64,000 nucleotides of DNA, taken from assembly GCF_027921745.1 (NCBI RefSeq), contig NC_079238.1:4712001-4776000 (forward strand), written 5' to 3'. The notes below the pieces were generated by a model, which saw nothing but the letters and a program-made list of their open reading frames with translations, had not been told where the DNA came from and did not search any database. The stretch's first letter is position 1; the number at the start of each line of letters is the position of its first letter. The DNA comes from Schizosaccharomyces osmophilus (Eukaryota; Ascomycota; Schizosaccharomycetes; Schizosaccharomycetales; Schizosaccharomycetaceae). Of the stretch, positions 3,041 to 33,723 are shown piece by piece. The position numbers and the translations under genes were made by a program.

Positions 3041-5443
3041 GATTTCCTTGTGTGATCAACGACGAGAAAGTAAACAATAAGAATTTAAAGAAAATATGAA
3101 AAATTTAAACGAACTGAAAAACACAAACCAAGGATTTGAAATATAGGTGATTAAGGTTGAACTGAACAGTTGGTCCCTTAAAATATGAATGAAAATAAGT
3201 CCTAGTGCCAAATAATGAACCCGATTGAGCTGAAACTCACGATTTATGACTGCTACCGGAGCTGTATCCGAAAAGCGTTATTGCTGTACGTACTTGGGAA
3301 ACCCGAAATAAAGTAAGTGCGTTTATGAGGGTAAGTCAATAAAATGGTGAAGGGGGGAACGATAAAAATTGAATATCCTAAAGGATTTAAAATGAAACTT
3401 GCAGTGACTTTGTTAAACCCAGCTTAACGAGAGGCAATGCCTATGAAAGATGAAATTTTGCGGATATCATCATAAATAAGGTGTTATATGTGCGCATTCC
3501 CAGTCATTGTTTAGCAGCTAGCTTATTCTCTTTGAGTTTGTAGATTTGTTATCCTTGAACCAACGCTAGATTTACCAAGAAGGTTTATTCCTTGTTTGTA
3601 ATAGGTTTCGATCTTGAGCATATAATCGAAGGTATTTACATGAGCCTTATGAATACTTCTTGTAACCAGTAAGTATGTTCTATATTTTTTTTGTCACATT
3701 TACAAACTTCTAGCTTATCATGTTAACTTATTTGTGATGTATACTCTGGCATATACGTGCATTTCTACCGAAGATAAAAAGTAGATTTTTTTCCCTGTTA
3801 TTTCTGTTCAACCCGTACGCTTGAATTGTGAGTTACACGTGTTAGGTATGCTACTTCATCCACTTGAACGAACCTGCATCTTTTTGCGATTGTAAATTTC
3901 GAACAGGACGTAATCGATCTAAGAACACGAAAATAATAATCTATTTTTATTAATGAAGGCTTCTCTTGGTTGAAAAGGTTTGTAATTTTATCCGGATCTT
4001 TCGATTTTTTCATATTGTTTACATATAATTCAATTTTTGGTTTTCTGATTCGACAGTTTTAGTAATTAATTGAGGAAAGTCTCACATCTGAATAGCAATG
4101 GGCAAAATATGAAGCATTACTAAGGGAAGAGGTATGTATTCCTTTAGAAATAAAAAAAAAAGCTACCCGCATGAGGAAAGTATCCAGTAACGCAATAGCA
4201 AGACAAGTAGCATCCCTTCGTGGGTTTATACGATGATGAATGTAGCAACTTTTTGCTAATCATATGATGATCGCAATTTCCCGGTATTCTTCACATCTAT
4301 TCCTCTATAAAATTTTGAGTGCTAAAAGTTTTGCAAGGTATTAATTTTTGGAGATAACTTTATGAGTTATTGAATTACAGCATAATACGCCCTAACCGTA
4401 AATTCCCGATATGACCAAGGTTGCTTAGTTTCGAATTTGCAATGCCGGAAGAGAAAAGATCATTACTTACGAAAATTAAGACAGAGCAAAATAGTTTTTT
4501 TTTCAAGTCTTGTGCGTAAGCAAAAACCAATTAATGAAGCAGATACATTGTTGTTATCTGAAAAGTGTATTGATTCAACAATATTTCCTGAGTGACTAAA
4601 TTAAATTAGATCGTTTTATTATTACAATTATAAATGCTTTTTAACAAAACTATGACGGCATAAATGAATTAGTCCTTGTTTTTGGCCAGAGTGTTGTGAG
4701 GTACGTAGAGCGCTATCTCTCAATCAGTGAATCATCCGTGCAAGAAAAAAAAATTTCAGCCCTCTAAAAACTATTACTTTTGATTATATTTCAGTACGAT
4801 TTTGAGAGGATAGATTTAACATATCATTGCTAGCATGATGTAGTGAAAACCATGGAAACAGTCATATATTGTCGAATGTAAAAAAATGTTAGAACAAAAA
4901 TTTACGAATACAGTTTTTAGAGCTAATTTAAACGATTACGTCCGAGACGAGACGGTGGAGAATATCTGTAAAGGAACAAAATAATCAGGGTAATACACGA
5001 CGTCGATAAATAAACTTGCCTGCTTGGTTCGGTGAACATGTCGCTTAGAATAAATTAAGGAAACTGGAACAATAAACTAATTGACAGAAAATTTATGGAA
5101 TCTGTATATGCTAGATCAAATCATAAATCACTGCTTACGTACTACTTGGGGTAAAGCAAGTACGCGTACTCAAAGCAACAATGAAAATTTGGGTAGAATA
5201 TAAACATACTTTAAGTTGTGATAGTTATTTCCGCTTGCATTGAGGACCGAATACTGTTCATATTCGCAGTCCATAGCCAAGTTACCAGTCAAGAAAAGTG
5301 TAATTGTATTTATAATATATGACTAACCCTAACAATAGATATTTTGAAATAAAAAAAAATTCAGAGTAATAACTAAATATTTAATGACGCTAAAGATGCT
5401 TCGAACATACATTGATTTTATTGGACTATGTCGAATCTCTTGG

Positions 5444-8400
5444 TGTCACATTACCCATATACGATATTAGTAATATCGTTTTATGATTATTGTATAACAA
5501 TAAGGATTCAGTGAATGTAATGAAGAAACAAAGAAACTGTTTAGACAAAGAGTCGAAAGAAGATAAAGAAAATAGGTTTAGATAAAGACTTTGTTACTAA
5601 TTATATAAATGCGCAAATTAAAATGATGTCTGATCAGATGATGGTCATGAATCAAGAAAGGATGGCCGAAAAAATAAGTAAAATGGAAAATGACGAAGAT
5701 TATATTTATGAAACACCGTTAGACATGATCGAATTGATATCACAGAATTACGGTGCAAAATTCAGTTTATATCTAGATGAAGTCAGAAGAAACATACCAA
5801 AAACATTTACTGGAAAAACAACCAAGCGTTAAGTGATTTCAAAGATGCACTGGTAATGATCTTTACAACAGTACCCCTAGTGTTTCCAACTGATCGCGAA
5901 AAAATCATTTATCTTTATGATAGAGCTGGAGAACATTATCGAAACCAAATTAGGGAGATTGTGAAAAAACCCGGAAAGAATAAAATTTTTAAGTACGTCT
6001 ATGAACAAACCCTTGAAAATGGAATAAGCGATTCCTGGTTTAAAAACATTGCATGAATATTTAGAACAAACACCAAATTTGGATCTTGACTTTCATGATT
6101 ATGAGAAATGGATCAATAGCTTAGACCAAAAACATATTAGGGTCACTATCTTTTTTAGCCTCAAAATGAATCATCGAAGCCTTCTTCTTGATAATCGTTA
6201 TGAAAAAGGAGATATACATCAAGCAAGGGAACAGGCATAGAGAAAGTTTTGGTACACACCACTTCCAAAACCAACGAAATATACACGCCAACACTTTTCA
6301 CCGTCGAAACAGAAAATTTGGAAACCTAATAAGCGCGAACAAATCAAGAACCGGGATGACATCAAAAATGAAGCGAAACCAAAGTTAAATGAAATACTAG
6401 AACCTAATGTCGACTCTAAGAGAAATTGAACCATCCATATAAATTAAATTATATTTGAGAGAGCGAAGGACCAAGTATCAAGGTGATGAATTTTCTCAAT
6501 TTTGTGATTTTGAAATCAAAAATTGCAAAATCAATGCGTTCATAGACACAGGCGGAAATGTGTCAGTAATGAGAGAGGATTGAGTTAAACAGTTTGCAAC
6601 TAAATCTAATAAAGAATATAGAATATTCGAGAGTATAACGGAAGACAAACTCGAAGTTAAAGGAAATTCAACACTATCAGTAAAACTTAACGATGGAACG
6701 TATTACGAAAAGTTTAAAATTACACCAAAGGCACAGAATCCAGTTCTTATCCGATGAACTTATAAAAAGGATATAAGGAAGCAGGAAATCCTTGTTTGAC
6801 TGTGACAAACTCAAGGATTGGAATAATAACCCTGAAGAAACTAAATATAAACTTCATGAAATATTACCGCGTTTCGACAAAGTATTTACACATCCTACAA
6901 ATAATCCGTTACCCGAACACTCAAATAGTGATTTAAGGATCGAACTTACAGACAAATTGCCAAATTATACACCAAAACTAAGGCCTTATACACAAAAGGA
7001 ATACGCAACAAAATACGAAAAGATGCACGAATTATTAAGTCAAGGCCGAATCCGAAAGAGCTCATCAAAATTTATGTGTGCTCCTAAAGTTGTAGCAAAA
7101 AAGGGAACAGATAAATATCTTATGGTTATAAATTACAAACCACTAAACGCGATTACAGAGAGGGATAATTATCCATTACCTAATTTTGAAGAAATCATAA
7201 ATTGGCTTAGCGGAGCCAAAGTCTTCAGTAGAATTAATCTGAAAGAAGCATATCATTTACTTAGAATTCGAAAAGGCGATGAACAAAAGACAGCCTTCAA
7301 GGCACCCTTTGGAGCAATTTAATACAAAGTAATGCCCTTTGGATTAACCACTGCGCCAGCAAATTTTCAAAGGCATATTAACAAAGTACTTTTACCATAC
7401 CTTGGAATTTTTATTATCGTTTATTTGGACGATATTCTGATATTTTCCTCCTCAGAAAAAGAACACGAGGAACATTTACGAAAGGTATTGCAGAAGCTAC
7501 AAGACGCAAATTTATACGCAAATCGAGAGAAATGTACCTTTTTCCAAAAGAAAGTCAAATTCTTAGGTCATATCTTCTCCAACCAAGGACTTGAGATTGA
7601 CCCAGAAAGAATTCAAGCTGTTACAAATTGGCCTGAACCCAATACGTTGCGACGCCTACAATCTTTCTTAGGTTTTGTTAATTATTCCAGACGATTTATG
7701 CCGAATCTTTCAAAATTGGCACGACCGTTATATGATTTAACAAAAAAGAATGTCAAATACAAATGGACCGATCGTCATAAAGAAGCCTTTGTCAACATCA
7801 AGAAAGAGCTAGAAAACGTTTCTATGTTAAAACACTATGATCCAACAAAAGAAACTCGATTAGAAACTGACGCTTCCGACTTTGCCATAGGAGCCATTCT
7901 ATCGCAGAAACAAGAAGACAACGTTTATCATCCAATAGCCTTCTATTCAGAAACATTCACAGATCGTCAATGCATTTGGCCAACATGGGAAAAAGAAGCC
8001 TATGCAATTATTGCTGCTCTCCGAAAATGGTATCATTTCTTAGCTCACACAGAAACACCATTTCAAATATTAACAGATCACAAGAATCTAACATCTATGT
8101 TTACAAAAATTCGCACAGATACTCGTTCCAAAATCAATAGATGGGCAACAGAATTGGAACTATACAATTTCGAAATTCAATATCGACCTGGCCGAAAGAA
8201 TGAACCAGCAGACGCAATCTCGCGTCGTCCAGATTATAAAATCACTGCCATCAATCAACTAAGTGAAGCAAATTATTTAACAAACGTTTTCGATTACGTT
8301 CGCAAAGAATACTCCAATCATAAAAACTTTCAACGAATCCTAAATGGAGACAACGACAATCCGCAATATACAATTATAAACGGCCTCATCATTAATGATA

Positions 8401-10152
8401 AAAGACAAATTATCATCCCAAAAGTTCCACAACTAGTTCAGTTGATATGTTATCAATTCCATGATCATCCTATTTCAGGAGGACATCGAGGAAAATTGTC
8501 CACAACAAATCGCATTCGCGAAAAGTTTTATTGGCAAGGAATGACAAGCGATATCCAAAAGTATGTTAAAAATTGTGATATATGCCAGCACAGTAAAACT
8601 CGAAATCATCAACGCTATGGCCAATTACAACCACTGCCCATTGCAGAAAAACCGTTTCAACATTATTCTATGGATTTTATCGTTGGATTACCAGTATCTC
8701 AAGGTAAAGATGCCATCTTAACAATTGTTGATCGTTTCACCAAAATGGCTTGGTTTCTTCCTTGTAATACAACCACGACCGCAGAACAACTGATTGAAAT
8801 GTTCGAAGATCACATCGTATCGGTATACGGCAATCCAAGAGATATCGTTTCCGACAGAGGACCTGTATTCATTTCTGATAAATGAAAACAATACCTCAAA
8901 GATCATAAAATAACCCTCAAATTATCTTCTGGATATCATCCACAAACGAATGGACAAACTGAGCGTATTAACCAAATAGTAGAAACATATTTACGATGCT
9001 ATATGCATGACAACTTGGAAAATTGGGCTACATATTTGAAGAAAGCACAGTTATGCTATAACTCTGCTGAACATAGCGCTACCAAAGTAAGCCCTGTAAA
9101 GGCCGCATTTGGTATACAACCTATACTAACAGAATGGGATTTGCAATTGATAAACGATCTCGGTACATCATTTTTATCCTCACAAACAGAACCTGTTCAC
9201 GAGATCAGAAACCACATACGAAAAGCAAATGAACGTTATGCAAAATACTATAATCGCAAGACAGAGATACCGCCGATATTCAAATCCGGTGACCAAGTAC
9301 TCATTAAGAATAGTAAAGTGGGATTCTTTCATCAAAACAACAAACTGGAACCAACGTTTGTCGGACCATTCGAAATAAAAAAGAAATTTGCAGAACACAA
9401 CTATACTTTAAATTTTCCTCGTGAAATACGAAGACGATACCCTGCATCATTTCATGTGTCTGAACTCGAACCATACAACGCAGACTCACATGCAAACAAC
9501 TTTCTAGCAAACATAACTATCGACCGTATATTAGACGTCGACAACAACCAAAAGCCTTCGCTTTATTACTGTTTATACCATACGAAACTGTCAAACGACT
9601 ACCTTCGTTCAGTCACTTGGATCCCCACTCACATTGTTCAACAGAAAGCAAATACAAAACTTGTTGAATTTAACCACAGCGCCTCATCTCGATAGAACCG
9701 CAAGGAAAACAAGATCTTTCAATTCAAGGAAGTGAAAGCGTCTTAAGAGAGGAGGTGTCATAACCGGTATACGATATTACTAATATCTTGATACAGGAAA
9801 CACATTGTATTATCAAATACGTTATTACAAAAAGTAAATGTTCATTTTTGCGATTGAAAATTTTAGAAATCTAGAACTAAAGTTATTAAAGAGCTTACTA
9901 ATCCTAGAAAGATATATATACCTCCACTTGAGAGCTCAAATCTTCCAATCTGAAGATTTGACTGATCTAAGTAAATAAATTGTTCATAACACTTTGTTAG
10001 TGAATCAGATCCCTGGGAGCTATTGCTATATAGTCCAAGTAGTACCAAAGCATCCAATTAAAAGTCAAACATACAATTTAATGAATTGTTACTACATACA
10101 TCATTTCCACTGAAAACTTATTTTCATAACAAGTGAGACTCAACCTGTGACA
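5444..10152 (+). mobile_element. Fossil Ty3/gypsy LTR retroelement (Tf-like, chromodomain type), broken
   Basis: A degraded copy oriented with the + strand. The right LTR is proposed at 9756-10152: it begins TGTCA after a purine tract (AGAGAGGAGG at 9746-9755) and ends TGACA. The left end at 5444 also begins TGTCA, and its first ~40 bases match the right LTR start (TATACGATATTA), but the rest of the left LTR is much reduced. Recognisable parts in order are: gag-like region ~5.6-6.4 kb, protease-like ~6.5-6.8 kb, reverse transcriptase ~6.8-7.8 kb (YLDD), RNase H ~7.8-8.2 kb (TDAS), integrase ~8.4-9.4 kb (zinc-binding HHCC region and catalytic core), and a chromodomain-like C terminus to ~9.7 kb. 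It carries perhaps half a dozen or more breaks, so it is inactive. No matching target duplication is evident. Age is moderate: most domains still read clearly. Confidence 0.88.
9756..10152 (+). repeat. Right LTR of the retroelement fossil (proposed limits)
   Basis: It opens TGTCATAACCGG and closes TGACA, giving the 5-bp terminal inverted repeat typical of Tf-family LTRs, for a length of 397 bp. The start is well placed by the purine tract before it. The end rests only on the inverted TGACA and the expected LTR size. Confidence 0.55.
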
Positions 10153-11872
10153 CCAATCAGTATATTATTGTACAGCTCTACTCAGACATGAAAAAAAATG
10201 AATTTTTCATTGAAATTTAATAAGTCAGTTTCCATTTCTGGTATATTGCTCTTTTAAACGCTAGATTAATTAACTCTATAAGCGCTAGCCATTCCCAGCC
10301 CAAGTCTTCCTAAGTGAAAATTTTGCTGGAAGAGCTAGAATATATGGTTTGTCAATATTCTCATTTAGTTCGCCAGGTTGTTACTATACATATCTCTCTC
10401 TGGTTATGTAGTAACTCGTTTGAAACCACGCTTTAAAACTTGAAAAATCAATAACCTTTGTATTTCACTTCGTCAAATGATGCGGAGTATTTTGCCGTGA
10501 CGTCATGTATATTACCAAAATATCCAATAATGTAGACAGAAGTTTTGCATACACAAATTTGGCACTTTGTTTACTTTGGTTAGCTTTTTAAAACAGGCTC
10601 ACAACAAAACTGTGGTAATAAAGGAAGGAACCATAATTCCGTAGATATTACCACCGAACTTCATAATGCCAGATTAAATACAAACAAAACACAACCTAGA
10701 TAGCTCATAGAATAATTAATAAAACCTGCATGTAACTCCATTCTAACAAACAATCTTTATTTTTGATACCACACTTCCAATATTATATGAATGAATTAAT
10801 TGAGTAATTAGTGCTATGAATAAGTGACTTTCGGTTGCTTTATATATTAGCAGGAAGGCTAATAAATTTAAATAGTAGAAAACTCTGGCTAAATGTACCA
10901 TCTATTAAACAAAAAGAGCCGACTTTATAAAATTTCCTCATATATATTGTTCATTATAGTCCGCCGAAGTTACGGCTAAAGCGATATTAATAAAGCATAT
11001 TCGCTATCGCTCGTATCAAAGCAAAGTAGACATGGAAAGAAGACAACTTTGCATCATTGAAACTTCAATAAGTCAGGTATGAAGCCGCAATACTGAGGCC
11101 ATCTAAATTTTAGCTAATTTTAAGAAACGTTGAAACTTGAAGATTGGCATAAAGATATCTTAGTCTACAACGTGAATTGTCATGGCATGAATTTGCTTTA
11201 CTTGAAAAAACTTAGAATCTTCTGTGGGGACTAGAAGTTTATATATGTTTACTGTTTAGATTTGATAAAAAAAGTAAATTTTTAAATGCAGTTATTTCTT
11301 ATAGAATCATTAGGGTGATGACCTGAATTACTTGACAGGAAATGGATTTCATTGCAACAGCCGTGTTAATAATATAAAGCTTCTGTTGCTTTAGCTGTTT
11401 AATTCGATGTTTAGTACTGGAATTTTGATTCTTCAATGAAAAACTAGTGTCAAGCGGGTTACTTCGTATTACAAAACAGTAATATATCTTAGTATACGTG
11501 GTAACAATGATATTAAAAAAGAAAAAGCGTAGTATAAGTAATCAAATAAGATGATAATATTATAGATCAACGCAGTACTGCGCAACAACGACTTATAGAA
11601 TGTTATTCGTTGTAGTAATGGTAATCTTAACATAGAGGTATGCTTCGTCTTTTTTAATACTTTCTATTTGCTTAAAGAGTTTGGAAACTAAAAATTTATT
11701 AAGGATCTAATATTTCACACCATAAGAGTTGAGGTTGAATAGGTAGTGTAATAATGATCTCAGGGAACACACAATTTATAACGTCTGCGGGCTGGTAGTC
11801 AAAGAATATTATCGCATTACGGTCGTAACAATTGTTGTCGAACAAAGTAATTCATGGATTTATTAGTTGCCC
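10153..11872. other. Gene-free region between the retroelement and first host gene
   Basis: No gene is supported in 1.7 kb. It contains a perfect CRE palindrome at 10498-10505 and a second copy of a 16-mer at 10585-10600. It probably marks the outer part of the silent mating-type domain; no tRNA or inverted boundary repeat is visible here. Confidence 0.65.
10498..10505. promoter_or_regulatory. CRE palindrome TGACGTCA (candidate Atf1-Pcr1 site)
   Basis: A perfect 8-bp ATF/CREB palindrome in gene-free DNA. In S. pombe, Atf1-Pcr1 sites in the silent mating-type region nucleate heterochromatin independently of RNAi. Here it is 1.4 kb from the nearest gene end, so an ordinary promoter role is less likely. 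Function is inferred. Confidence 0.5.
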
Positions 11873-12733
11873 CTAAGGCTTTCGACCTGAAGCGATGACT
11901 AAGCCAAGTTTGACAGCATACAAAGCCTTATCTTTAGTCAACTGCTTCACTTCAGGATTTGGGTTTGAAGTAGACTTATGATATTTAGCTTCATCAACCC
12001 ATACTTTAGTTTGAAATCCATCAGAAACGACAACATCTTTAAAACCGGTTTTTTCAAAGAGTTCGATATATTGTTGCTTTGTAAACCCGTTTGGATGACC
12101 GATACCATGACTAGCATGGAAATCCGCTGACATATTCCCGTGAAAACTTCCAGCGCCTCTCAGAAAATCAACCACGTATAGACGACCTGATGATTTCAAA
12201 CAGTCTTTTAGCTTTTTAGTAATGAAATCCACGTCTTTAATATGGTGGTAAGCCATAGAACAAACAGCAGCGTCATACTTTCCAGCAATTCGATCGTTAG
12301 GCTCTGTCTCTGATCTCAAATCCACGTGTTCAGCGTGAGCCTTTTCCTTTTTAACATTCAGAATCTGAAACTTGTGATTAAATTTGTCGACCATTGCTGG
12401 TGAAATATCGAGTCCAAGGATACTGTCACAATAAGGTGCCAAATGTTCGCTAATTAAGCCAGTTCCGCACGCAAAATCAAGCAAGCGAATGGTTTTGGAT
12501 TCCCAAAATTTATCAACATTTGTGAAGTGTTCATTAACATCTACTGAATCTTCACTGAACTGTTCATAGGAGGAGGCTTGGTCCAAATTAACAGCTGGGT
12601 TTGCTGATTCAGTAGAGAGTTGCAAAATCTTTTTGCTAATAATTTTTGTCACTGCCAACGTACTGGGATTGTCATACTCATGAGCCTTTTCGGCGTTGAA
12701 ATATCTTACATTCAAGTCGGTAATATTAGACAT
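11873..12733 (-). CDS. Class I SAM-dependent methyltransferase
   Basis: 286-aa methyltransferase of the UbiE/small-molecule type, probably soluble; its substrate cannot be read from sequence. Motif I is LLDFACGTGLISEHL (residues ~92-106), followed by the acidic loop of strand 2, ILGLDIS, and a post-motif CSMAYHHIKDVDF typical of the family's motif II region. The ATG at 12733 gives a start without signal peptide. It is the first host gene next to the silent mating-type DNA and is divergent from the HAD phosphatase gene. S. pombe has several such genes and I cannot assign a one-to-one name. Confidence 0.85.
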   Translation of the reverse strand: MSNITDLNVRYFNAEKAHEYDNPSTLAVTKIISKKILQLSTESANPAVNLDQASSYEQFSEDSVDVNEHFTNVDKFWESKTIRLLDFACGTGLISEHLAPYCDSILGLDISPAMVDKFNHKFQILNVKKEKAHAEHVDLRSETEPNDRIAGKYDAAVCSMAYHHIKDVDFITKKLKDCLKSSGRLYVVDFLRGAGSFHGNMSADFHASHGIGHPNGFTKQQYIELFEKTGFKDVVVSDGFQTKVWVDEAKYHKSTSNPNPEVKQLTKDKALYAVKLGLVIASGRKP

Positions 12734-14739: not shown

Positions 14740-16410
14740 TTAAATCTCTTCGTAATGTTGAAAAATATCAGCGTCCCATTTTTGTTGAGAAGTCACTTCC
14801 TTTTTCAAATGCTTCAAAAAGGCTTCAGAGCCGCATGCAGCTACTGTATTAGTTTTAGTGTCGGATAAACCATAGTGATCTTTGATATAGTTTTCTAAAT
14901 TAGGTTTTCCGTCACAGTATTGAACCAAATTGGAACCACTTGATTTCGATATTAAACGCTCTTTCACAGGATAGCTTGTGGTAAGATGACAATATATACG
15001 GACGGAGACCTGCTTTTGATCCAATGAATCCTCCAAAACTCTAGTAAATAAACTGAGTAACTTCAATGACCGACAAGACCATACAAAAGTGATATGAAGA
15101 GTATTCCCAGGCTTCAAAAGAAGATCCCTTAGGATAGGTAAGGTATAGGTAATGCCGACACCTCCAGCAGCTAGAAAAACATAAGCGTAATTCCTAAATG
15201 GATTTGAAACTGGTCCATAAGGTCCATCCAATAGAACAGTCATTTGTTTGGCTGATGCTGCAGAATTAGCATCTGAGTTTATTTCATTATCGGAGCTAGA
15301 TTCGTCCCGACCTGAGTGCCATTCGGAAATAACTATATCTGCATCGTTACTTGACTTGACTTTTTCAACTTCTCCACTTAGCGGATTGGTTGTGGAATTC
15401 ATTTTGTTGGCCAATCTCTGGGTAAATCCTTTACGAACAGCAACCACAAGCTCCACATAGTCGTCCGAAGGGCAGCTAGCAAGGGTAAAAGGATGGATTT
15501 GCCAAAAACTAAAACGAGGGATGCTTATAAAAACATGGCTGCCCGAAGACCATGGCAAAGAAAAGAAGGAGACTTTGGGTTTTTTTCCGCGTAAATAAAT
15601 AACGTTCTCTTCAATCATACTTACTTCAAATTTTGTTCTATTTATGAAGCTTCGCAGAATTCTACATCCACGATCAAACACGTAACAAGCAAGAGCCGCT
15701 TTCATATAGGGGACGCAGTGCCGATCATGATAATGGATGCATATGAGAAAACCAATGCTACATGCATGATGTAAAACAAAGAACCATTCATAAAACCTAC
15801 GTCGAAAAAACGGTAAAGCACTGACAATCATTATGACCATTAATCCCAAAATACCATATCCCCATCTGAACACAGGCTCAACTAACTTACGGTGCTTATG
15901 GCTGTCCTTTCCGATGTAAATAAGGCCGTGTATAACACCCAGCATAATAGCAAACTGAGATAGGCGGCGATGAACATAATTCATCTTTTCATGTGAGGTG
16001 AAAAGCATCAAAGAAAATGGATTGTTTTTTAGACTGAAAAAGTAAGAGATAAAAAAAAGCGCGGCAGCTAAAAAACCACATCTTCCTCCCACTGCAGTTG
16101 CGCTCCAATTTCCTTTCTCATGTTTAGGAGGTGTCTCTTTTCCAACGAATGGAACGGCAATTGCAAAAACAATGGGAACAGCAATTAGAGTCAAGATAAC
16201 TTTATTCGTTATTACATATAAATAAATGTTTCGAATTACCAAATAAACGCGCTCTACAGGAGAGGCATATGTCTTGGCGGAGCTGTCTCTTTTACGTGAT
16301 TTAAAATAAACCCTCGCAGTTTCTATAACATAAAGTCCAGAGAGAGCAAGTAAGCATCCAATAATTAAGCATATGGCAATGACTGCCCATTTATGCCCAG
16401 ATTTAATCAT
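14740..16410 (-). CDS. frp1: Plasma-membrane ferric-chelate reductase
   Basis: 556-aa NOX/FRE-family enzyme that passes electrons from NADPH through FAD and two hemes to extracellular Fe(III) chelates, supplying Fe(II) for uptake. Several transmembrane helices are visible from the N terminus (residues ~9-30, 70-90, then the FRE domain). Heme histidines lie in VHRRLSQF, GVIHGLIY, LHHAC and CIHYHDR. The FAD site is HPFTLAS and the NADPH region has DGPYG and AAGGVGITY, with WSCRS near the C terminus. Neighbour pcl1 downstream on the map matches my memory of the S. pombe frp1-pcl1 pair, which favours frp1 over frp2. Four extended GATA elements upstream fit repression by Fep1 in high iron. Confidence 0.9.
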   Translation of the reverse strand: MIKSGHKWAVIAICLIIGCLLALSGLYVIETARVYFKSRKRDSSAKTYASPVERVYLVIRNIYLYVITNKVILTLIAVPIVFAIAVPFVGKETPPKHEKGNWSATAVGGRCGFLAAALFFISYFFSLKNNPFSLMLFTSHEKMNYVHRRLSQFAIMLGVIHGLIYIGKDSHKHRKLVEPVFRWGYGILGLMVIMIVSALPFFRRRFYEWFFVLHHACSIGFLICIHYHDRHCVPYMKAALACYVFDRGCRILRSFINRTKFEVSMIEENVIYLRGKKPKVSFFSLPWSSGSHVFISIPRFSFWQIHPFTLASCPSDDYVELVVAVRKGFTQRLANKMNSTTNPLSGEVEKVKSSNDADIVISEWHSGRDESSSDNEINSDANSAASAKQMTVLLDGPYGPVSNPFRNYAYVFLAAGGVGITYTLPILRDLLLKPGNTLHITFVWSCRSLKLLSLFTRVLEDSLDQKQVSVRIYCHLTTSYPVKERLISKSSGSNLVQYCDGKPNLENYIKDHYGLSDTKTNTVAACGSEAFLKHLKKEVTSQQKWDADIFQHYEEI

Positions 16411-16614
16411 GTTTACCCAAAATTTATTTTAATGTTGATTATATAAGAATCGGTGATAACCCAAAGGAAAGGCAACTTTTGACGCTAAAAAGCTCTTGTG
16501 TAAAAAAGTGAAATTCTACATTCTTTTATACCTTTTTCTTTCCACAACAAAGAGTCTTCTCTTGCGACATTTTCACATTCTGGTGACACGATTTTTATCA
16601 ACGACCACTCAGCT

Positions 16615-16623
16615 TTATCAGAT
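16615..16623 (-). promoter_or_regulatory. Fep1-type extended GATA site 1
   Basis: TTATCAGAT on the + strand, that is ATCTGATAA on the coding strand of frp1, about 205 bp upstream of its ATG. It matches the extended iron-GATA consensus ATC(A/T)GATAA. Confidence 0.7.
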
Positions 16624-16687
16624 GGACCGGTTGTCCCATTATGCACCAAAAATATCAGATCAAAACTGACATGTTTTGCAGTTGAAA

Positions 16688-16696
16688 TTATCAGAT
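16688..16696 (-). promoter_or_regulatory. Fep1-type extended GATA site 2
   Basis: A second exact TTATCAGAT, about 278 bp upstream of frp1 and 73 bp from site 1. Closely paired sites are the usual arrangement for Fep1 repression. Confidence 0.7.
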
Positions 16697-17172
16697 GTAC
16701 CCGGTTTTATCCGATCATCACCGGCATGTGAAGAACACTGTTGCATCAATAGTAAAAATAGAAAAAAAAAGAAGAAATCGCGACTAAAAAGCACCAAATG
16801 TAAGCCTTTAATACCAAAAAGATGATTATATTTGCAAGTTAACCAATCTTCGGACACATTGAATCGGGGATACTTGAGGAGCATCAAGCTAAACGTTCCC
16901 TTTGTTAATAATGACTTTGTTGAAAACTATTGATATTTCGGAAATAACCGATGGTCCTAAATTGACAGCCTTTGATTAAAAATATAAGACTAAAAGGAAG
17001 CACATCGAAGAGAGTACAGCAAAGCGTCACTTAGCATTCTAAATGTAAATTTAACAATAAATGAGAGAAAACTTGCAAAAATTGGCATTATTTGTACCAT
17101 AGGTGTAGGGAATTATAATTCTTTAGCTTACAGACAAGATCTTGAATTAGCTTCGACTGCTGTGATCAAATA

Positions 17173-17211
17173 TTATCAGATTTTCTTATTTGAATAGAGT
17201 TAATCAGATAA
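17173..17211. promoter_or_regulatory. Fep1-type extended GATA sites 3 and 4
   Basis: TTATCAGAT at 17173-17181 and, in the opposite orientation, ATCAGATAA at 17203-17211. They lie 0.76-0.8 kb upstream of frp1 and past the 3' end of pcl1, so they may be a distal frp1 element. Confidence 0.55.
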
Positions 17212-17668: not shown

Positions 17669-18376
17669 TTACGTTGGAGTTTCAAAAAACTTTCCTACTA
17701 AGGAAGTGACGGCCATAGCTATAACACCCAAAACGGTGACTCTGAATATAGCTCGCATTCTGTTGGCACCTCCAATCTGAGCGCCTACGATACCCAGGAA
17801 AGCGAGGAAAAAAAGAGTCGAAAAAGTCAAAATAAAGGTGACATGTTCTATAGGACTCAGGAGTGCTGTAATCAAAGGTAAAATCGCACCAGTTGAAAAT
17901 GCCCCAGCAGATGAAAGGGATGCTTGTAGCGGCTTTGCTATGGAATACATGTTGATGCCCAACTCGTCACGAGCATGTGCCTCTAAAGCATCATGTTCCA
18001 TAAGTTTGGTAGCTACTGTGCGAGCTAATTCTCGGTCCAACCCTCTCTTAATATAGACATTGGTTAACTCAATCACCTCTTCATCCCAGTGTTGTTCCAT
18101 CTCTTGTCTTTCTAAATCTAAATCCGCGGTTTCCAAGTCTGCCTGCGAACTGACAGAAACATATTCACCGGCAGCCATTGACAAAGCACCAGCAATTAAA
18201 CCAGAAACTCCTGTTAAAGCGATATTTCGTTGAGAGACTTCAGCAGACGAAACTCCAATCAATAAACCAGAGACAGACAGTATACCGTCATTGGCGCCCA
18301 GGACAGCGGCCCGTAACCAGCTGACATTGCCCATCGCATGCTTCTCCTTTGGTCTCGGTTGCAGCCAAGCAAACAT
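17669..18376 (-). CDS. pcl1: Vacuolar iron transporter, CCC1/VIT1 family
   Basis: 235-aa membrane protein that moves Fe(II) (and possibly Mn) into the vacuole for storage. Helices of the VIT fold are visible: [20 protein letters not shown] and [20 protein letters not shown] at the N-terminal half, then a soluble acidic metal-binding segment ([17 protein letters not shown], with further E and H residues), and three C-terminal helices. The conserved GANDGILS and MAAGEYVS motifs are intact. The start is the ATG at 18376; no ATG exists further upstream in frame. Its neighbour frp1 also handles iron. A CCAAT box ~175 bp upstream fits control by the Php complex, known for S. pombe pcl1. Confidence 0.92.
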
Positions 18377-19313
18377 TGTTAATGATAGATGATCGAAACG
18401 CAACCAAAATCAATTATACAAGAGAGCGAAAGAGATTGTATTTTGTATTTCACTTAGTAACAGTCCTTCTCAATAAGAATATGCCACCGTTTATGTTTAG
18501 GTTTGAAGAACTGCTGCTTCCGATTTTTTAAATTAATTGTAAGGTCTAAGATTGGCTTACTAAATGTCGATTTTTATAGCCCCGTTACTTTAACTTTGTT
18601 ACTTGGAGGAAGTAATATGACTTCCTCCTATGTTTATTTGTAACAAAAATTCGCGTTTTAAACACCCAGGTTCAAGGCTATTTCAAAGTATCTTTCTATA
18701 TTCTTTTTTAAATTCTATTTTTTTTTATTTACGTCCATTGCATTTACCGTCTTTTGTCATGCAATCTTCAAGTGGTACAAGGAAAAAACAAAAAAATAGA
18801 AGCGTTCTTGTACCACCGAAATGAAGTACTAAACAGAAGTTCTTTATGGTTGAGTGATTTAAAATAAGAATCATAATGGAAACGACTGGTGTTTACTGAA
18901 GAAATAAAAACTGAAATTGAGTTTTGGAGTAGACGAGAAAAATCCGCAAATCATCAAGTTGAATTCCTTGTTATTTCTTTCTAATGGAATCCTTTTTCTC
19001 TTGGTGTTTTATTTATTTATTTATTCGGCTGTATGATTTCTCTTTCAGTTAGTGTTCTTTTCATATAACTCCAAAGTGACATCATATCAAATCAAGGACG
19101 GTATTTAGTTTAATGATGCATTTCGGGGCCTGAGAACACAGTTCAAATCATTGTTGTACTGTGAGAAGTTGTTCAAGGCCAGTAGCAATGCAGTGTTTCC
19201 GTGATCAAGTTACATGACGGCCTGCGGTCGTTTAGTTATCTATATATGTGTATGTATACAGACATTTTAGCTCATCGTGTGTTCAAGAAGACTTTTGTAA
19301 AGATACTATATAT
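18377..19313. other. Divergent region between pcl1 and bioD
   Basis: About 0.94 kb with no gene. It contains the CCAAT box of pcl1 and T-rich tracts. A stretch of TA repeats (TATATATGTGTATGTATA near 19241) precedes bioD. The sequence reads as ordinary AT-rich yeast DNA with no bacterial-looking segment. Confidence 0.65.
18551..18555 (-). promoter_or_regulatory. CCAAT box upstream of pcl1
   Basis: ATTGG on the + strand gives CCAAT on the pcl1 strand, about 175 bp before its ATG. This is a candidate Php2/3/5 (with Php4) site for repression in low iron. A 5-bp match alone is weak; family knowledge of pcl1 regulation supports it. Confidence 0.4.
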
Positions 19314-19973
19314 ATGGGCAGTACACCAGTTCCCATATCCAGAAGAACAAGTATGAAATTATTCGTCACTGGAATTAGTACAGACGTAGGGAAGACAATT
19401 GTATCATCAATTCTCGTGGAATCCTTACAAGCGGATTACTGGAAACCCATTCAATCGGGTGATTTAGACAATTCAGATTCCCATAAAGTCCAAAGGTTGA
19501 TTAGCAACTCCAAAACCCATATTCATCCAAATACTTATGCCCTAAACACACCAGTTAGCCCTCATGTTGCTGCAGAGATCGACCATGTTACAGTTGATGT
19601 AAATCGCATTGTTCCCCCCAAAACCGAAAATCCTCACATGGTTATTGAGGGTGCAGGAGGAGTTTTTGTACCGTTGAACGATAACGATATGATCATTGAT
19701 TTAATTCATCCAGATTATAAGGTTGTTATCGTATCTAGAAATTATTTGGGAAGCATCAATCACACATTGTTGACCATCGACGCTCTTCGCAACAGAAACA
19801 TCTCAATCGCTGGCATCATATTTAGTGGAACAAAAAACCCTGAAACGGAAAGTTGGATCTTACAGTATTCTAAGCTTTGTTGTATCGGACGAGTAAACGA
19901 GGAGGGCACTTTTGATAAATCTTTGATCTCCAAATATGCCGAAATGTTTCATCCCAACATCATGAACCTATGA
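19314..19973 (+). CDS. bioD: Dethiobiotin synthetase, Bacteroidetes-like
   Basis: ATP-dependent carboxylase that closes the ureido ring of 7,8-diaminononanoate to make dethiobiotin, the penultimate step of biotin synthesis. The P-loop is GISTDVGKTIVSS, followed by WKPIQSGDLDNSDSH, the diaminopelargonate-binding TPVSPHVAA, and the catalytic-loop EGAGGVFVPL. From memory, this phrasing is characteristic of Flavobacteria-type BioD. Two starts are possible: ATG 19314 (219 aa, used here) or ATG 19353, which begins directly at MKLFVTG as bacterial proteins do. No intron. It lies 178 bp before bioA on the same strand. S. pombe has no such gene to my knowledge, so I infer horizontal gain. Confidence 0.93.
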   Translation: MGSTPVPISRRTSMKLFVTGISTDVGKTIVSSILVESLQADYWKPIQSGDLDNSDSHKVQRLISNSKTHIHPNTYALNTPVSPHVAAEIDHVTVDVNRIVPPKTENPHMVIEGAGGVFVPLNDNDMIIDLIHPDYKVVIVSRNYLGSINHTLLTIDALRNRNISIAGIIFSGTKNPETESWILQYSKLCCIGRVNEEGTFDKSLISKYAEMFHPNIMNL

Positions 19974-20151
19974 GCGGGCTTTACGAATATCTGTACTACC
20001 ATATACATAGTACTTTTATAGGTGAGAAAGAATGGAAAATTGAAAGCATTTAAGGAAATTACTTTACACTACAACACATTCAATAACAACAACCCTCATC
20101 CTTACCGTTCTTTAATTGTTTAGTTATCTGCAATTTTAAATAGTTTACTCA

Positions 20152-21426
20152 ATGAATTGGGTGGAAAAAGATTTGGAATACATTTGGCACCCATACACTC
20201 AGCACAAAACAGCAAAGCCTCCCATCGTTATTGTCAAAGGAAAAGGAGCTTTACTGTGGGACGAAAATGGAAAAGAGTATATCGATGCCATTGCTTCCTG
20301 GTGGGTGAATCCTTTTGGTCATAGCAACAAGTATATTGCGGACCAAATCTATAAACAATTGACGAGCTTAGAACATGTTTTGCTTGGTGGGTTTACCCAC
20401 CCTCCAGCAATCATGCTAGCAGAGCGACTGTTATCTATTTTGCCCAAGAACCAAAGCAAAGTTTTTTTCTCGGACAATGGTTCCACTTCTGTCGAAGTGG
20501 CTATAAAAGCAGCCCTGCAGTACTTTTACAACAAAAATGAAAAGCGAACAACCATCGTAGCTTTTGAGGATGCATTTCATGGCGATACCTTTGCAGCAAT
20601 GGCTGCAAGTGGAATTTCATTTTATACGATGGCTTTCCAAGGAATGTTTATTGACGTTGTTCGCATTCCCGTGCCTGTTCCTGGAAAAGAAGCACAAAGT
20701 TATGAAACTCTTGAAAAAGTTCTTACTGAACATCACTGCGCTGCTTTTATTTTTGAAGTTTTAATCCAAGGTGCTGGAGGCATGAAAATGTATGAGCCTG
20801 AATGCCTAGACAAACTCATTGGAATTTGTCAAAAGCATCAAGTGTTAACCATCGCCGATGAGGTTATGACTGGTTTCGGAAGAACGGGAAAATTGTTTGG
20901 ATGTGATTATCTAAAAAGTCAACCTGATGTGCTATGCTTATCCAAAGCTCTGACAGCTGGCACAATTCCCATGGCTATAACTACGTTTTCCAAAAATGTT
21001 TTCGATGGCTTCTACAGCGACGACATCAACAAGGCCCTCTTTCATGGTCATACATTCACTGGAAACCCTACTGGATGTGCCGCGGCACTGGCAAGTTTGG
21101 ATTTGTTACTGTCCAAAGATATGCAAGACAATATTTCTCGTATTCATCGCAGTCATTTGGAATTTCAAAGGCGTTTTAAATCGCATCCACGCGTGCATAC
21201 AATTCGTGTGCGCGGTGTTATTCTCGCACTCGAAGTTTCATCTCAGCAGAAAGAAAGTTATTACGGTAACCTCAGAAACAATTTATATGACTTTTTTCTC
21301 AAGAATGGAGTTATGCTACGTCCCATTGGAAACATTGTTTACATTCTGCCTCCCTATATAATTTCTCACGAGCAACTGACGACTGTTTATTCTACGATTG
21401 AAAGAGCTTTAGAAGAAGTAGTATAA
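20152..21426 (+). CDS. bioA: Adenosylmethionine-8-amino-7-oxononanoate aminotransferase, Bacteroidetes-like
   Basis: PLP enzyme that converts 7-keto-8-aminopelargonate to 7,8-diaminopelargonate using SAM as amino donor, the step just before BioD. 424 aa, the usual BioA length, intron-free. It opens with the BioA signature WHPYTQHKTAK, then ASWWVNPFGHSN. The PLP region shows DNGSTSVEVAIKAAL and AFHGDTFAAM, the aspartate of IADEVMTGFGRTG, and the Schiff-base lysine in CLSKALTAGTIPMA. HGHTFTGNPTGCAA and LRPIGNIVYILPPY close the fold. The wording recalls Flavobacteria. Catalytic residues look intact, so activity is plausible. Fungal BioA activity normally resides in a fused or Bio3-type protein; this one is free-standing. 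Confidence 0.95.
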   Translation: MNWVEKDLEYIWHPYTQHKTAKPPIVIVKGKGALLWDENGKEYIDAIASWWVNPFGHSNKYIADQIYKQLTSLEHVLLGGFTHPPAIMLAERLLSILPKNQSKVFFSDNGSTSVEVAIKAALQYFYNKNEKRTTIVAFEDAFHGDTFAAMAASGISFYTMAFQGMFIDVVRIPVPVPGKEAQSYETLEKVLTEHHCAAFIFEVLIQGAGGMKMYEPECLDKLIGICQKHQVLTIADEVMTGFGRTGKLFGCDYLKSQPDVLCLSKALTAGTIPMAITTFSKNVFDGFYSDDINKALFHGHTFTGNPTGCAAALASLDLLLSKDMQDNISRIHRSHLEFQRRFKSHPRVHTIRVRGVILALEVSSQQKESYYGNLRNNLYDFFLKNGVMLRPIGNIVYILPPYIISHEQLTTVYSTIERALEEVV

Positions 21427-22486: not shown

Positions 22487-23752
22487 ATGAATGAAATAAG
22501 AAATACAGCTACCAACCTGATGGACAAGCAGTTGGGTCGGAATCCCGTTTCGGAGACATACGGCCAGCCGGTCCAAGATCCATCAGGCGCAACCATGAAA
22601 GCTGTTGTGTTCAATGGCTCAAAAAGTGTGAAAATTGAGCAAGTGCCTAAACCAACAATCACTCACCCAAAAGATGTGATTGTTAAAACGACTGCCTGTA
22701 CCATCTGCTCAGGTTCTGATTCCCACATGTTTTCTGGCGAAGTTCCAGGTATTGATAAAGGTTCTGTCCTTGGACACGAGTCTTGTGGTGTTATAGTTGA
22801 ACGCGGCTCAGAAGTCCAGGATTTATTTGTAGGTGAGAGAGTAGTTATCGCTTTCGATATTGCCTGTGGATCCTGTTCATTCTGTAAACGACGTGAGTTT
22901 CCCGGTTGTGACACTACAAATGACACTAAGCTTATGGACGTCAACTACGGTGCGCATCACTCTGCAATCTTTGGCTATACCAAGATGCTGGGAGATGTCC
23001 CAGGCTGTCAGGCCGAATATATTCGTGTCCCGTTTGGTGATGTCAACTGCTATAAGCTCCCAGAAGATATTCCCGATATTAAAGGTCTCTATATGTCAGA
23101 TGTATTGTGTACCTCTTTGCACGCATGCGAGCTCGGCAGTGTCAAAGAAGGAAATACAGTTGCAATTTGGGGTATGGGGCCTATTGGGTTGTATGCAGGC
23201 CGTTGGGCTGAAATTCTAGGTGCGAAACGTGTCATTGGCATTGAGACTATTCCTGAGCGCATTGAAATCGCTAAGAATCGTTTTGGATTTGAAGTAATAA
23301 ATAGAAATGAGGTGAAAGATATTCCCAAAAAGATTCTCGAATTAATTCCCAATGGCCCAGACGTTGCTATTGATGCCACCGGTTTCCGATTCACCACTAC
23401 TATGCTTCAAAAGGTAGAACGTGCTGTGGGTTTGGAGACGGATTCAGCTGATGTTGTATTTGAATGCTTCCAAAGTGTTCGAAAATATGGCCATGTCTCC
23501 CTCATTGCAGACTATGTTGGAACTAGCAATCAATTCCCTATTGGACATATCATGATGAAACATTTGACGGTTCGTTCTGGCCAATGCCCATGCCAAAACT
23601 ACTTTGACAGAGTATTAAAAGCTCTAAGATCCGGAGAGATTAATCCGGAATGGATGATCACTAACAAGGTCAAGTTTGACGATCTACCTGACGCTTATGA
23701 GAAATTGTTTTACAAACAAGATGGATATCTCAAGATTTTCTGTGAATTGTAA
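22487..23752 (+). CDS. Zinc-containing alcohol dehydrogenase, glutathione-dependent formaldehyde dehydrogenase-like
   Basis: 421-aa medium-chain dehydrogenase, NAD(P)-dependent, in the formaldehyde dehydrogenase/dismutase branch. The catalytic zinc region shows CTICSGSDSH and GHESCGV. The structural zinc loop has four cysteines in CGSCSFCKRREFPGC. The Rossmann motif is IWGMGPIGLYAGRWAEILGA. The insert NYGAHHSAIFGYTKMLG and the late DATGFRF are typical of this branch. A ~35-residue N-terminal extension precedes the usual start at MKAVVF; the upstream ATG at 22487 is used because the frame is open and it follows a TATA box at a good distance. By neighbourhood it corresponds to S. pombe SPBC1198.01 (from memory). 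Confidence 0.9.
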   Translation: MNEIRNTATNLMDKQLGRNPVSETYGQPVQDPSGATMKAVVFNGSKSVKIEQVPKPTITHPKDVIVKTTACTICSGSDSHMFSGEVPGIDKGSVLGHESCGVIVERGSEVQDLFVGERVVIAFDIACGSCSFCKRREFPGCDTTNDTKLMDVNYGAHHSAIFGYTKMLGDVPGCQAEYIRVPFGDVNCYKLPEDIPDIKGLYMSDVLCTSLHACELGSVKEGNTVAIWGMGPIGLYAGRWAEILGAKRVIGIETIPERIEIAKNRFGFEVINRNEVKDIPKKILELIPNGPDVAIDATGFRFTTTMLQKVERAVGLETDSADVVFECFQSVRKYGHVSLIADYVGTSNQFPIGHIMMKHLTVRSGQCPCQNYFDRVLKALRSGEINPEWMITNKVKFDDLPDAYEKLFYKQDGYLKIFCEL

Positions 23753-29829: not shown

Positions 29830-31347
29830 CTATACATTCATGATGGTCTCGTCTTTCTTCTTGTCCTCAAAGGTTTCAGTATTACTTTGATGAGTTCTAG
29901 AGGGAATCTTTCCTTCTTCATCTTCAATCATGGCCCATATAGATACGCCTAATAGTAAAAAGGCTGCCAAAAATGTGAGAAATCCTGCGCCACCTCGATC
30001 AGCTTCTGTCGGTCGAGAAACGTTAACTTCATAGTTGTCTGTGGTTGAATTGGCACTAGCATAACTAGAATTTGAACGATTGTCTGACGAATTCGACAAG
30101 GTAACTAACTTTGGATATTTATCAACGTAAAGCATCTGTACAGCTTCCAAAGCTGAAAACTGTTGACCGACACCATATGTGCCATCCCATGTGCTATTGT
30201 CCCAAGACCAATGGACGCCGCAACTATTTCCACTGTACCCACCCGAACAAGCCAAAGCTGCAGCAGTTGCTGATGTTTCTATTAATGGGTATAGCTTGCT
30301 TCTGGTATAAGGAGCAAGACGAATTGCATTTCCAAAACTTTGCATCAATATTCCTTTAAATGCCGTTTGGTCAATGTTACATGTCCCTGTGTTTTCACAC
30401 TGTGGATCCCATGCTATGCCATTATTTATAAAAAAAGATGTGGCATGGGAAATAAAACCGTCAAGTCTCTTCTTCCATATGTTGTCTCCTTGAGTATAAT
30501 TGTACATGTAGGCGACACCAGTCATGTACACTCCAAGGTTATAAGACCATTGGGAATGATCTATGGTCGTACAATTCGTCGATGCTTTTGAGCCATCATA
30601 AACGCTGTAATTTGTGGTATTGACAAACCCACTAGATGTTGACCAATCCCAGATGCGATTAACCCAATCTTCATACGAGGAATCGCCAGTAAAACGAGCC
30701 AATCTAGCAGCTAGTTGAAACAGTAACCCATTACTGATACTGTTTTTATATGTATAACCACTCAACCAAGGAAACGCTTGCCAACGTACACCACCATTAC
30801 AGTTTACGTTGTCCCATCTACCGGAGATACGATTGAATGCTGCTTGACTTATTTCAAGCCAAGACGCTGATGAATCATCTACTTGTTTCAAATTGAGCTC
30901 TGCAGCATCCATTGCCGCAGCACCCCAAATTCCTTGGTCATCGTTTCCTAAATTGAAGTATTCGTCAGACGGCTGATAATCATGGTCACTACCAGCGTTA
31001 TACATCAAGGACTTAGAAACCAAATCCGTGTATGTATTATTATCAAACAATATACCATTGTTTAGGAGAACGGTCATGGATGCACCAGTAAGCCACCAAT
31101 ATGATGAGACAAATTTACAGTCGGTACCGTTCCAGTAATTCATCAGCTCTCCAGTCATGCTGTTTATGGTACTCCGAATTGAATCTAAATGAAGAGTTAA
31201 AAATTGTCGAGATACGAGTTAAGCCGGTCATAACGGCTAAAGCTACTTACCATCATCATGGATATCGAGATGAAGAGCTTGAACCTGGAAAAAAGGAAGA
31301 CAAATAGATATAATGTAAAGAAAAGGCAACAGCAAAGAATTTTTCAT
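29830..31347 (-). CDS. GH76 mannan endo-1,6-alpha-mannosidase (Dfg5/Dcw1 family), membrane-tailed
   Basis: Cell-wall enzyme of family GH76 thought to cut or transfer alpha-1,6-linked mannose when anchored proteins are joined to the wall. Exons 31347-31251 and 31184-29830 give 483 aa. Exon 1 encodes a signal peptide ([20 protein letters not shown]). The catalytic Asp pair is in [10 protein letters not shown]. Tryptophan- and cysteine-rich landmarks follow: [27 protein letters not shown] and GVHWSW. After a Ser/Asn-rich stalk comes a hydrophobic segment ([19 protein letters not shown]) and then ~33 hydrophilic residues, so it looks like a true transmembrane anchor and not a GPI signal. It is paired in tandem with a second GH76 gene. 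S. pombe has such a pair next to guk1. Confidence 0.9.
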
Positions 31348-32337: not shown

Positions 32338-33723
32338 TTAAAAGAACAACCATAGAGAAAACAATAAGAAAAGGAATGAAAAGAGAGCTGTTAGAAAGCC
32401 TGCCCAGCCTTTATCACTTTTCGTGGCAGCAGGAACGGAATAGCTTACTTGGGTAATTTGTCCTGCGCTTGGGTCGGATTTTGATCTTGCGCCAGTGTCC
32501 AGAGATAACAGAGGAGAATACTGAGGAGTTAAAACTGATTGAATAACTTCCAGTGCTGAAAGTTGTTCTCCGAGTCCGTAGTTTTTATCCCATGTACCAT
32601 TGTTCCAAGTCCATCTGTTTCCACAAGTGACACCATCATAACCACCACTGCAAGCTAAAGCAGCTGCTTTAGCACTTGCATGAAGGTAAGGCATAATTGT
32701 TTCAGCGGTATAAGGAGCGAGCTGCATGGTATAACTAAGGTAACGAGCGAGCATACCTTTAAAGCCAGTCTGATCATAGTTGCAAGTGTTCGACGTTTCG
32801 CAAGTAGGCTCGTAAATAATTTTGTCCTCGTTAAAGTAATGGTTTAGTGTTCGATTCAGCAGTCCATCCATATGACCTTTCCATTCAGAAGTTCCATTTG
32901 TGTAATTGTACAAAAAGGCGGTACCAGCAAGGTAAACACCAGTTGTATAGGACCATTGTTCATTTGTAACGCTGCTGCAGTTCGTCTCTGTTTTTGATCC
33001 ATCGTATACTGCATACGAATCCGCATCTACAAAATTGACGCTTACGGACCAATCCCAGACTTTTCGAGCCAACTCCGCATATGTATCATTTCGTGTATAA
33101 CGGGCAAGGCGAGAAGCCAATTGGAATAGTGCACCATTACTAATTGTATTTTTGTAACTGTATCCTTGGTTAAAAGAATAAATTTGCCAACGAATACCAC
33201 CATTACACGAAGAGTTATCCCATCGAGCGGACATTTCGTTTGTCACCGCTTGTGCAATGGCGGCCCAAGAAACATCCGACTGATTGTCCTGGATATTAAT
33301 TTCAGCTGCCGACATACCAGTCAAGCCCCAGATGCCTTGATCGTCATTACCAAGATTGAATTTTTCATTGTCTGGAGCGAAATCATCGTTTTCACCCTTG
33401 TTGGCCAAAAGGGAATCAACAACTAAACCCATATGAGTTTTATTTTTCGTTCCAGAATAGGTGTTTAGCATTCCATTGAGACAAGATCCCGTCATCCACC
33501 AATATGCAGTAAAATCATGGGACGAAGGCTGATAGTAATTCAGCATTCCTTTTGTTACTGTATCGATACCATCATAAACAGAGTCTATCCTTTCATTAGT
33601 AAAGTAATCCAAAGCCTACAAAGAAAAGCGCGAACCTTTATCATTGGGATCTAAATTGAAACAAGCAACACTTTTTAAAAGAAAGAAGAGTACCCAAATA
33701 TAAATATAATCATAACATTTCAT
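32338..33723 (-). CDS. GH76 mannan endo-1,6-alpha-mannosidase (Dfg5/Dcw1 family), GPI-type tail
   Basis: Second GH76 wall enzyme. The main exon starts at 33615 after a TTTGTAG acceptor (GCT codon, reading ALDYFTNERIDS) and runs to 32338. It has no in-frame ATG, so it needs a first exon. The best candidate starts at ATG 33723 and encodes a hydrophobic signal (MKCYDYIYIWVLFFLLK); its donor is not clear. Core motifs are intact: [43 protein letters not shown]. The protein ends within its hydrophobic tail (FLTALFSFLFLLFSLWLFF), the classic GPI-attachment pattern, unlike its tandem partner. About 440 aa. Confidence 0.86.

Follow-up and report, generated by a model that had tools for sequence, protein, structure and literature searches.

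The window analysed here, 64,000 nucleotides of a Schizosaccharomyces osmophilus contig, contains two adjacent genes of bacterial type, bioD and bioA, for consecutive steps of biotin synthesis. To our knowledge, S. pombe is without BioA and BioD and needs biotin. The locus raises the question of where the pair came from, whether both genes arrived together and whether they still serve biotin synthesis. A first, sequence-only reading had proposed that two intact, intron-free genes were gained from Bacteroidetes by transfer of an operon fragment. The features considered below are collected in Table 1.

Table 1. Positions of the bioD–bioA pair, of flanking host genes and of a repeated upstream motif in the window
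Feature	Position	Strand	Basis or remark
bioD, predicted dethiobiotin synthase	19353..19973	+	206 aa; TIGR00347, PF13500, identity to bacterial loci, start context
Intergenic stretch, 178 bp	19974..20151	+	GC 0.31
bioA, predicted 7,8-diaminopelargonate (DAPA) aminotransferase, SAM type by model	20152..21426	+	424 aa; TIGR00508, NF004624
Ferric reductase, flanking host gene	14740..16410	-	PF01794, PF08022, PF08030
VIT-family transporter, flanking host gene	17669..18403	-	PF01988
Zinc alcohol / formaldehyde dehydrogenase-like, flanking host gene	22487..23752	+	PF08240, PF00107; solved relatives
GTTTAGTTATCT, copy 1	19230..19241	+	Upstream of bioD; overlaps TATATA at 19241
GTTTAGTTATCT, copy 2, identical	20118..20129	+	22 bp upstream of the bioA ATG

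The bioD and bioA genes and their predicted products

Both reading frames are open and lie on the same strand, as had been proposed, and neither contains a GTATGT or GTAAGT donor, which agrees with intron-free genes; the sole occurrence of these hexamers between positions 19201 and 21430 is at 19250, upstream of bioD and bioA. The start of bioD, which had been placed at 19314, has to be moved. Homology with bacterial BioD begins instead at the ATG at 19353, which aligns with the start of the bacterial proteins and has an A at position −3. The in-frame ATG at 19314 has a T at −3 and would add 13 residues without counterpart in the bacterial matches. Two further ATGs open short frames at the spacer, one at 19970 that overlaps the bioD stop codon (27 codons) and one at 20032 (three codons). 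A significant match between the 178-bp spacer and the bacterial loci was not found.

Both proteins exceed the cut-offs of the models for their families. BioD scored 128.2 bits against the TIGR00347 equivalog (cut-off 83.3), and BioA scored 537.5 bits against the TIGR00508 equivalog (cut-off 405) and 507.6 against NF004624 (cut-off 494). Solved relatives of BioA match the window protein at up to 287 bits. By these scores BioA is predicted to be a SAM-dependent DAPA aminotransferase and BioD a dethiobiotin synthase. The peptide words by which the sequence-only reading had recognized Flavobacteria are present in both window proteins; Flavobacterium BioD, though, has QAGD where the window has QSGD, the serine being the window's own residue.

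The catalytic motifs were likewise found to be intact, the active-site residues being the same in 125 of 125 rows of the Flavobacterium range. BioA retains K265 (PLP lysine), D236 (PLP-contacting Asp) and, in the substrate site, W50, W51 and Y15; these align with K274, D245, W52, W53 and Y17 of 1dty, which we take to be E. coli BioA. In BioD, the P-loop GKT (K27, T28), K44, D55 and E112 are kept, and this set is also identical in 40 of 40 rows outside the Flavobacterium range. The roles assigned here are those of the E. coli BioA residues and of the BioD active-site residues. At the position of E. coli Tyr144, window BioA has F142, like all 125 Flavobacterium-range rows. R244 is replaced by Lys in these 125 rows and is Arg in E. 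coli.

Conservation was counted over the 125 Flavobacterium-range rows plus 60 (BioA) or 40 (BioD) others, after removal of duplicate, short and frame-broken sequences. The range was defined by search origin (L001–L080 and L115–L173) and includes a few metagenome bins with other names. At columns with the same residue in at least 98% of the 125 rows, window BioA deviates at 11 of 189 and BioD at five of 71. Among columns conserved across all rows, BioA deviates at three of 81 (F78L, P203V and A250G), while all 37 BioD columns are intact. With random substitutions simulated to match the observed divergence, none of 2000 runs for bioA and two of 2000 for bioD retained an open frame. Since simulated drift closes frames that are open in the window, selection has kept both genes.

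These counts also bear on the idea that the genes are relics or have taken on a changed role and no longer make biotin. The altered BioA columns, including the three generally conserved ones, point in this direction, as do the long branches of the window proteins in the trees described below (0.53 for BioA and 0.82 for BioD). In view of the intact active sites, the unaltered BioD columns and the open frames, we nevertheless consider a loss of the biotin function improbable.

Relationship to Flavobacterium loci

BioA was used to scan bacterial and archaeal genomes, and of the 243 loci obtained the best 80 were kept. Across these 80, BioA is 65–74% identical to the window protein and full-length BioD 57–67%, with 68% to the nearest row of the BioD tree. 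By title, 67 of the 80 are Flavobacterium or Flavobacteriaceae, eight are other Flavobacteria or Bacteroidetes bins, one is [Flexibacter] and four are oddly named bins. Bins titled Bdellovibrio, Klebsiella, Sphingobacterium and Rhizobium (L029, L030, L057 and L068) carry a Flavobacterium-type bioD–bioA pair, and these titles are most likely wrong bin labels.

Genome samples of the genus, family and class, in part drawn from larger groups, placed the closest proteins in the genus. Among the matches listed for 299 genus genomes, identity reached 74% for BioA and 67% for BioD; a BioD match was present in 225 of the 299 and absent from 74. A close BioA is not a property of all Flavobacterium: some members, G170 and G220 among them, carry a more distant BioA alone, and others nothing but paralogues. 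In the family sample (120 genomes), BioA of L174 is 64% identical; the others, the genus member aside, reach at most 54% in near-full matches, among those listed. The class sample (149 genomes) contains BioA at 71% identity in two genomes, both also part of the genus sample; outside the genus, near-full BioA matches listed do not exceed 54%, and one match of 56% spans residues 8–154 only. All 1898 plasmid records with a BioA match stay below 60%, and the 40 listed of these 1898 reach 42%.

The arrangement of the two genes is that of the bacterial loci. In 79 of the best 80, bioD stands directly upstream of bioA on the same strand at a distance of −4 to 228 bp; this number includes L029, where bioD is cut by the contig end, and the one exception is L074, whose contig carries the bioA match from base 12 onwards. 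Widening the count to all 198 loci with a near-full BioA, genome duplicates among them, gives 169 with a same-strand bioD at −10 to 400 bp. Because this order prevails among the donor loci, the order and orientation of the window genes would be explained by a single event. The proposed transfer of an operon fragment thus holds as far as the order and strand of bioD and bioA are concerned, and the source may or may not have been a longer operon: 40 of the 80 loci carry a bioF-like gene in the 600 bp ahead of bioD, 37 carry none there, two have too short a contig and one is without bioD. Two such upstream genes had bioF (TIGR00858) as their best model, with 350 and 367 bits, under the cut-off of 426. 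In L003, a ketoacyl-synthase-like gene follows downstream of bioA. As the bioF-like gene comes and goes, the bioD–bioA pair is the stable unit of the locus.

Trees of both proteins, which the sequence-only reading had suggested, each placed the window within a Flavobacterium-type set. The BioA tree (86 chosen loci of 205 plus the window, 87 rows) has the window in a set of 59 rows, the rest of them Flavobacterium-type, with support of 100/97; L174 falls outside this set. The BioD tree has 93 rows, with L029, L115, L141, L174, L177 and L187 left out as partial, duplicate, missing or frame-broken, and places the window in a Flavobacterium-type set of 34 rows (support 98/87). A concatenated tree of 82 loci and the window (83 rows) agrees at genus level, with a 63-row set supported at 100/99.

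Topology tests on the concatenated data were uninformative: a Flavobacterium clade without the window was not rejected (AU test, p 0.78) and scored 20.9 log units better than the free-search tree, and a tree with the window among other Flavobacteriaceae was not rejected either (p 0.48, the reference again being this suboptimal free-search tree). A smaller BioA set of 46 rows was therefore used, in which five trees were compared together. Here, a position of the window with other Flavobacteriaceae was rejected (p 0.0026), as was a position outside Flavobacteriaceae (p 0.012). Not rejected were the window as sister to the genus (p 0.38) and the window outside the genus and its nearest relative L174 (p 0.105). 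From these outcomes we name the genus Flavobacterium, or its immediate stem, as the donor. The proposed gain from Bacteroidetes is borne out by sequence identity, by the trees and by gene order, and is narrowed to this genus or its stem; it is almost certain that the two genes came in together from a bacterium of Flavobacterium type.

The path need not have been direct. We know of no fungus with a Flavobacterium-type pair that could have served as an intermediate, which counts against a passage through another fungus that first took the genes from Flavobacterium. Transfer between fungi has been put forward for another fission-yeast gene, as passages of PMC2459174 propose that PhzF of S. pombe came from a CTG-clade budding yeast. 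The budding-yeast pair BIO3/BIO4 is reported to come from proteobacteria, according to part of PMC2880306. Taken together, we see only a small chance that the pair came by way of another fungus.

Two separate transfers from different flavobacteria, ending side by side, are less probable still. The nearest rows within Flavobacterium differ between the BioA and BioD trees, as such a history would predict; given the low support for any placement inside the genus in either tree, this difference means little. The order, strand and short distance of the window genes match the donor loci and argue against separate arrivals. Because of the differing nearest rows, one donor for both genes is likely, not proven.

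Host context and upstream sequences

The pair lies among yeast genes. Besides the flanking genes of Table 1, the window carries two GH76 genes, a CDC20/Fizzy-type WD40 gene, a Sec23/Sec24-like gene, Reb1 and a class II tRNA synthetase, as well as genes for an M20 peptidase, pirin, 6-phosphogluconate dehydrogenase, an RRM protein, a kinase, a replication factor A subunit and a class V aminotransferase. The two GH76 genes are neighbours in tandem (29830–31158 and 32338–33612). Window Reb1 is identical at 146 of 177 positions to Reb1 of structure 5EYB, which we take to be the S. pombe protein; this marks the genome as that of a fission yeast other than S. pombe. The gene order of the window resembles that of S. 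pombe chromosome II, from SPBC1683 to SPBC1198 to SPBC660.

Signs of contamination, which the sequence-only reading had named as evidence against a transfer, were looked for in the flanks, the neighbouring genes and the degree of identity, and none was found. When 147 ORFs from 14 Flavobacterium donor loci were compared with the window, nothing beyond bioD and bioA matched at E 1e-3; in particular, these ORFs gave no bioF-like match and no match to the downstream ketoacyl-synthase-like gene. The best match of the flanks to a bacterial locus has an E value of 0.029. Since the window holds no further donor-locus match and the flanks are yeast genes, contamination is unlikely.

Codon usage leaves host and donor undecided. 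The log-ratios of bioA (+0.026 bits per codon) and bioD (+0.010) lie within the spread of the host, represented by 12 window ORFs from −0.010 to +0.105 with the retroelement among them, and also inside the upper end of the donors, whose maxima are +0.027 and +0.019 and whose means are −0.047 and −0.059. That codon usage is compatible with the donors, and that two bacterial-type genes are without introns, would also be expected of a Flavobacterium fragment misjoined into a yeast contig. Against such a misjoining, the highest nucleotide identity is 70% for bioA and 66% for bioD (each gene compared with the first 60 of 108 donor loci), no protein match above 74% was found among the matches listed, and on both sides a bacterial flank is absent and the neighbours are yeast genes. 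We regard an assembly artefact as the least probable of the explanations weighed here, with next to no weight left to it.

A virus as vector of the pair was rejected, as a related BioA was not found when a viral collection was scanned with six peptide patterns. The window also contains a retroelement region at 6792–9695, with frames at 6792–7322, 7332–8885 and 9003–9695 that match reverse transcriptase, RNase H, integrase and a Tf2-1-like SH3 domain. An ungapped direct repeat of at least 100 bp was not found around it (3500–12500), nor was the duplicated motif that passages of PMC10085805 describe for the single full-length Tcry1.

Few signals bear on how the genes may be expressed in the yeast. 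Bacterial promoter-like sites are not in excess (one found, 8.8 expected), and a budding-yeast VHRE-like motif has no match in the window. The 12-mer GTTTAGTTATCT occurs exactly twice in the window, even with one mismatch allowed, once upstream of each gene, and contains AGATAA, a GATA-type site, on the other strand. Two or more matches to it were seen in 10 of 100 shuffled windows. Markov simulations of the intergenic stretch together with the last 300 bp upstream produced a shared 12-mer in 34 of 5000 runs, and in 56 of 2000 runs when the whole upstream stretch was used; of 2930 pairs formed from real AT-rich pieces of the window, 37 shared one. Noticed after the fact, the 12-mer is possibly a shared promoter element and is to be taken as a lead only.

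GATA sites are bound by Fep1, the iron repressor of fission yeast. Within the 790 bp ahead of the ferric-reductase gene (16411–17200) there are five sites of this type, as might be expected of an iron-repressed promoter; across the window, WGATAA is not enriched (104 observed, 120 expected). One may speculate that bioD and bioA, taken up in one step, are co-regulated, either each from its own yeast promoter with the GATA 12-mer or by one transcript across the gap, that biotin synthesis would thereby be tied to the iron response of the ferric-reductase gene, and that the yeast would be independent of biotin, unlike S. pombe. We rate this scheme as rather unlikely.

Proposed gain of a KAPA-to-biotin route and comparison with known systems

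The explanation that we favour is a joint gain of the two genes from the genus Flavobacterium or its immediate stem, after which selection kept them and a route from 7-keto-8-aminopelargonate (KAPA) to biotin was restored; we hold this to be very probable. In a single event, bioD and bioA would have arrived as a bioD–bioA unit or as a fragment of a bioF–bioD–bioA operon, settled between the VIT-family and alcohol-dehydrogenase genes, come to be expressed as two yeast genes and been retained by purifying selection. BioA would transfer an amino group from S-adenosylmethionine to KAPA, yielding DAPA, and BioD would use CO2 and ATP to close DAPA into dethiobiotin. The last step, from dethiobiotin to biotin, would fall to Bio2, a native biotin synthase that we expect the yeast to possess. 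Compared with the donors, BioA is without an N-terminal extension, which makes a cytosolic place likely.

In S. pombe, a biotin synthase, bio2, and a biotin transporter, vht1, are described in part of PMC11658701. If S. osmophilus likewise keeps bio2, the gained pair would close the gap between KAPA and biotin. In S. cerevisiae, according to passages of PMC7267198, Bio3, Bio4 and Bio2 take KAPA to biotin, and KAPA can be imported. The need of the yeast would thereby shift from biotin to KAPA or KAPA precursors, and the pair probably lets it make biotin from a precursor instead of taking it up ready-made.

Among the titles and abstract starts listed in a literature search, no report of the pair in fission yeasts appeared, and by a term search 'biotin' is absent from the main text of three fission-yeast genome papers (PMC10085805, PMC6168568 and PMC8537764); the pair may already be in print or in annotations. 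In the genus of a major model organism, the locus provides a clean, testable example of a vitamin trait being gained, and it lends itself to studying how bacterial genes acquire eukaryotic promoters.

The same two activities are combined in the fused BioDA proteins, whereas the window pair encodes two separate proteins. In filamentous fungi, BioDA is fused. Window BioA scores 174 bits against 4a0g, which we take to be the fused BioDA of plants, BIO3-BIO1 of Arabidopsis, and 283 bits against 1dty. The pair also resembles the bioD–bioA locus of Flavobacterium, which shares the order, the strand, the short spacing and a BioA of 65–74% identity. The window differs from that locus in having no match to a bioF-like or ketoacyl-synthase-like gene, no excess of bacterial promoter sites and a spacer with a GC content of 0.31.

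A parallel exists in the budding yeasts. BIO3 and BIO4 of S. cerevisiae and Candida were regained by horizontal transfer (Hall and Dietrich, 2007, as cited in passages of PMC2880306, PMC2715888 and PMC2459174). Their donors are given as delta-proteobacteria for BIO3 and alpha-proteobacteria for BIO4 in part of PMC2880306, and as alpha and gamma in part of PMC2459174. With proteobacterial donors there, the gain in the fission yeast looks independent. As far as these sources describe the budding-yeast case, a yeast lineage bearing Bio2 regained the same two steps from bacteria, as we propose here. The window genes differ from BIO3/BIO4 in that both are of Flavobacterium type, stand in bacterial order and orientation and belong to a different subphylum of fungi. 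It seems that the two missing steps were regained a second time among yeasts, in another lineage, in one piece and from a donor of another bacterial phylum.
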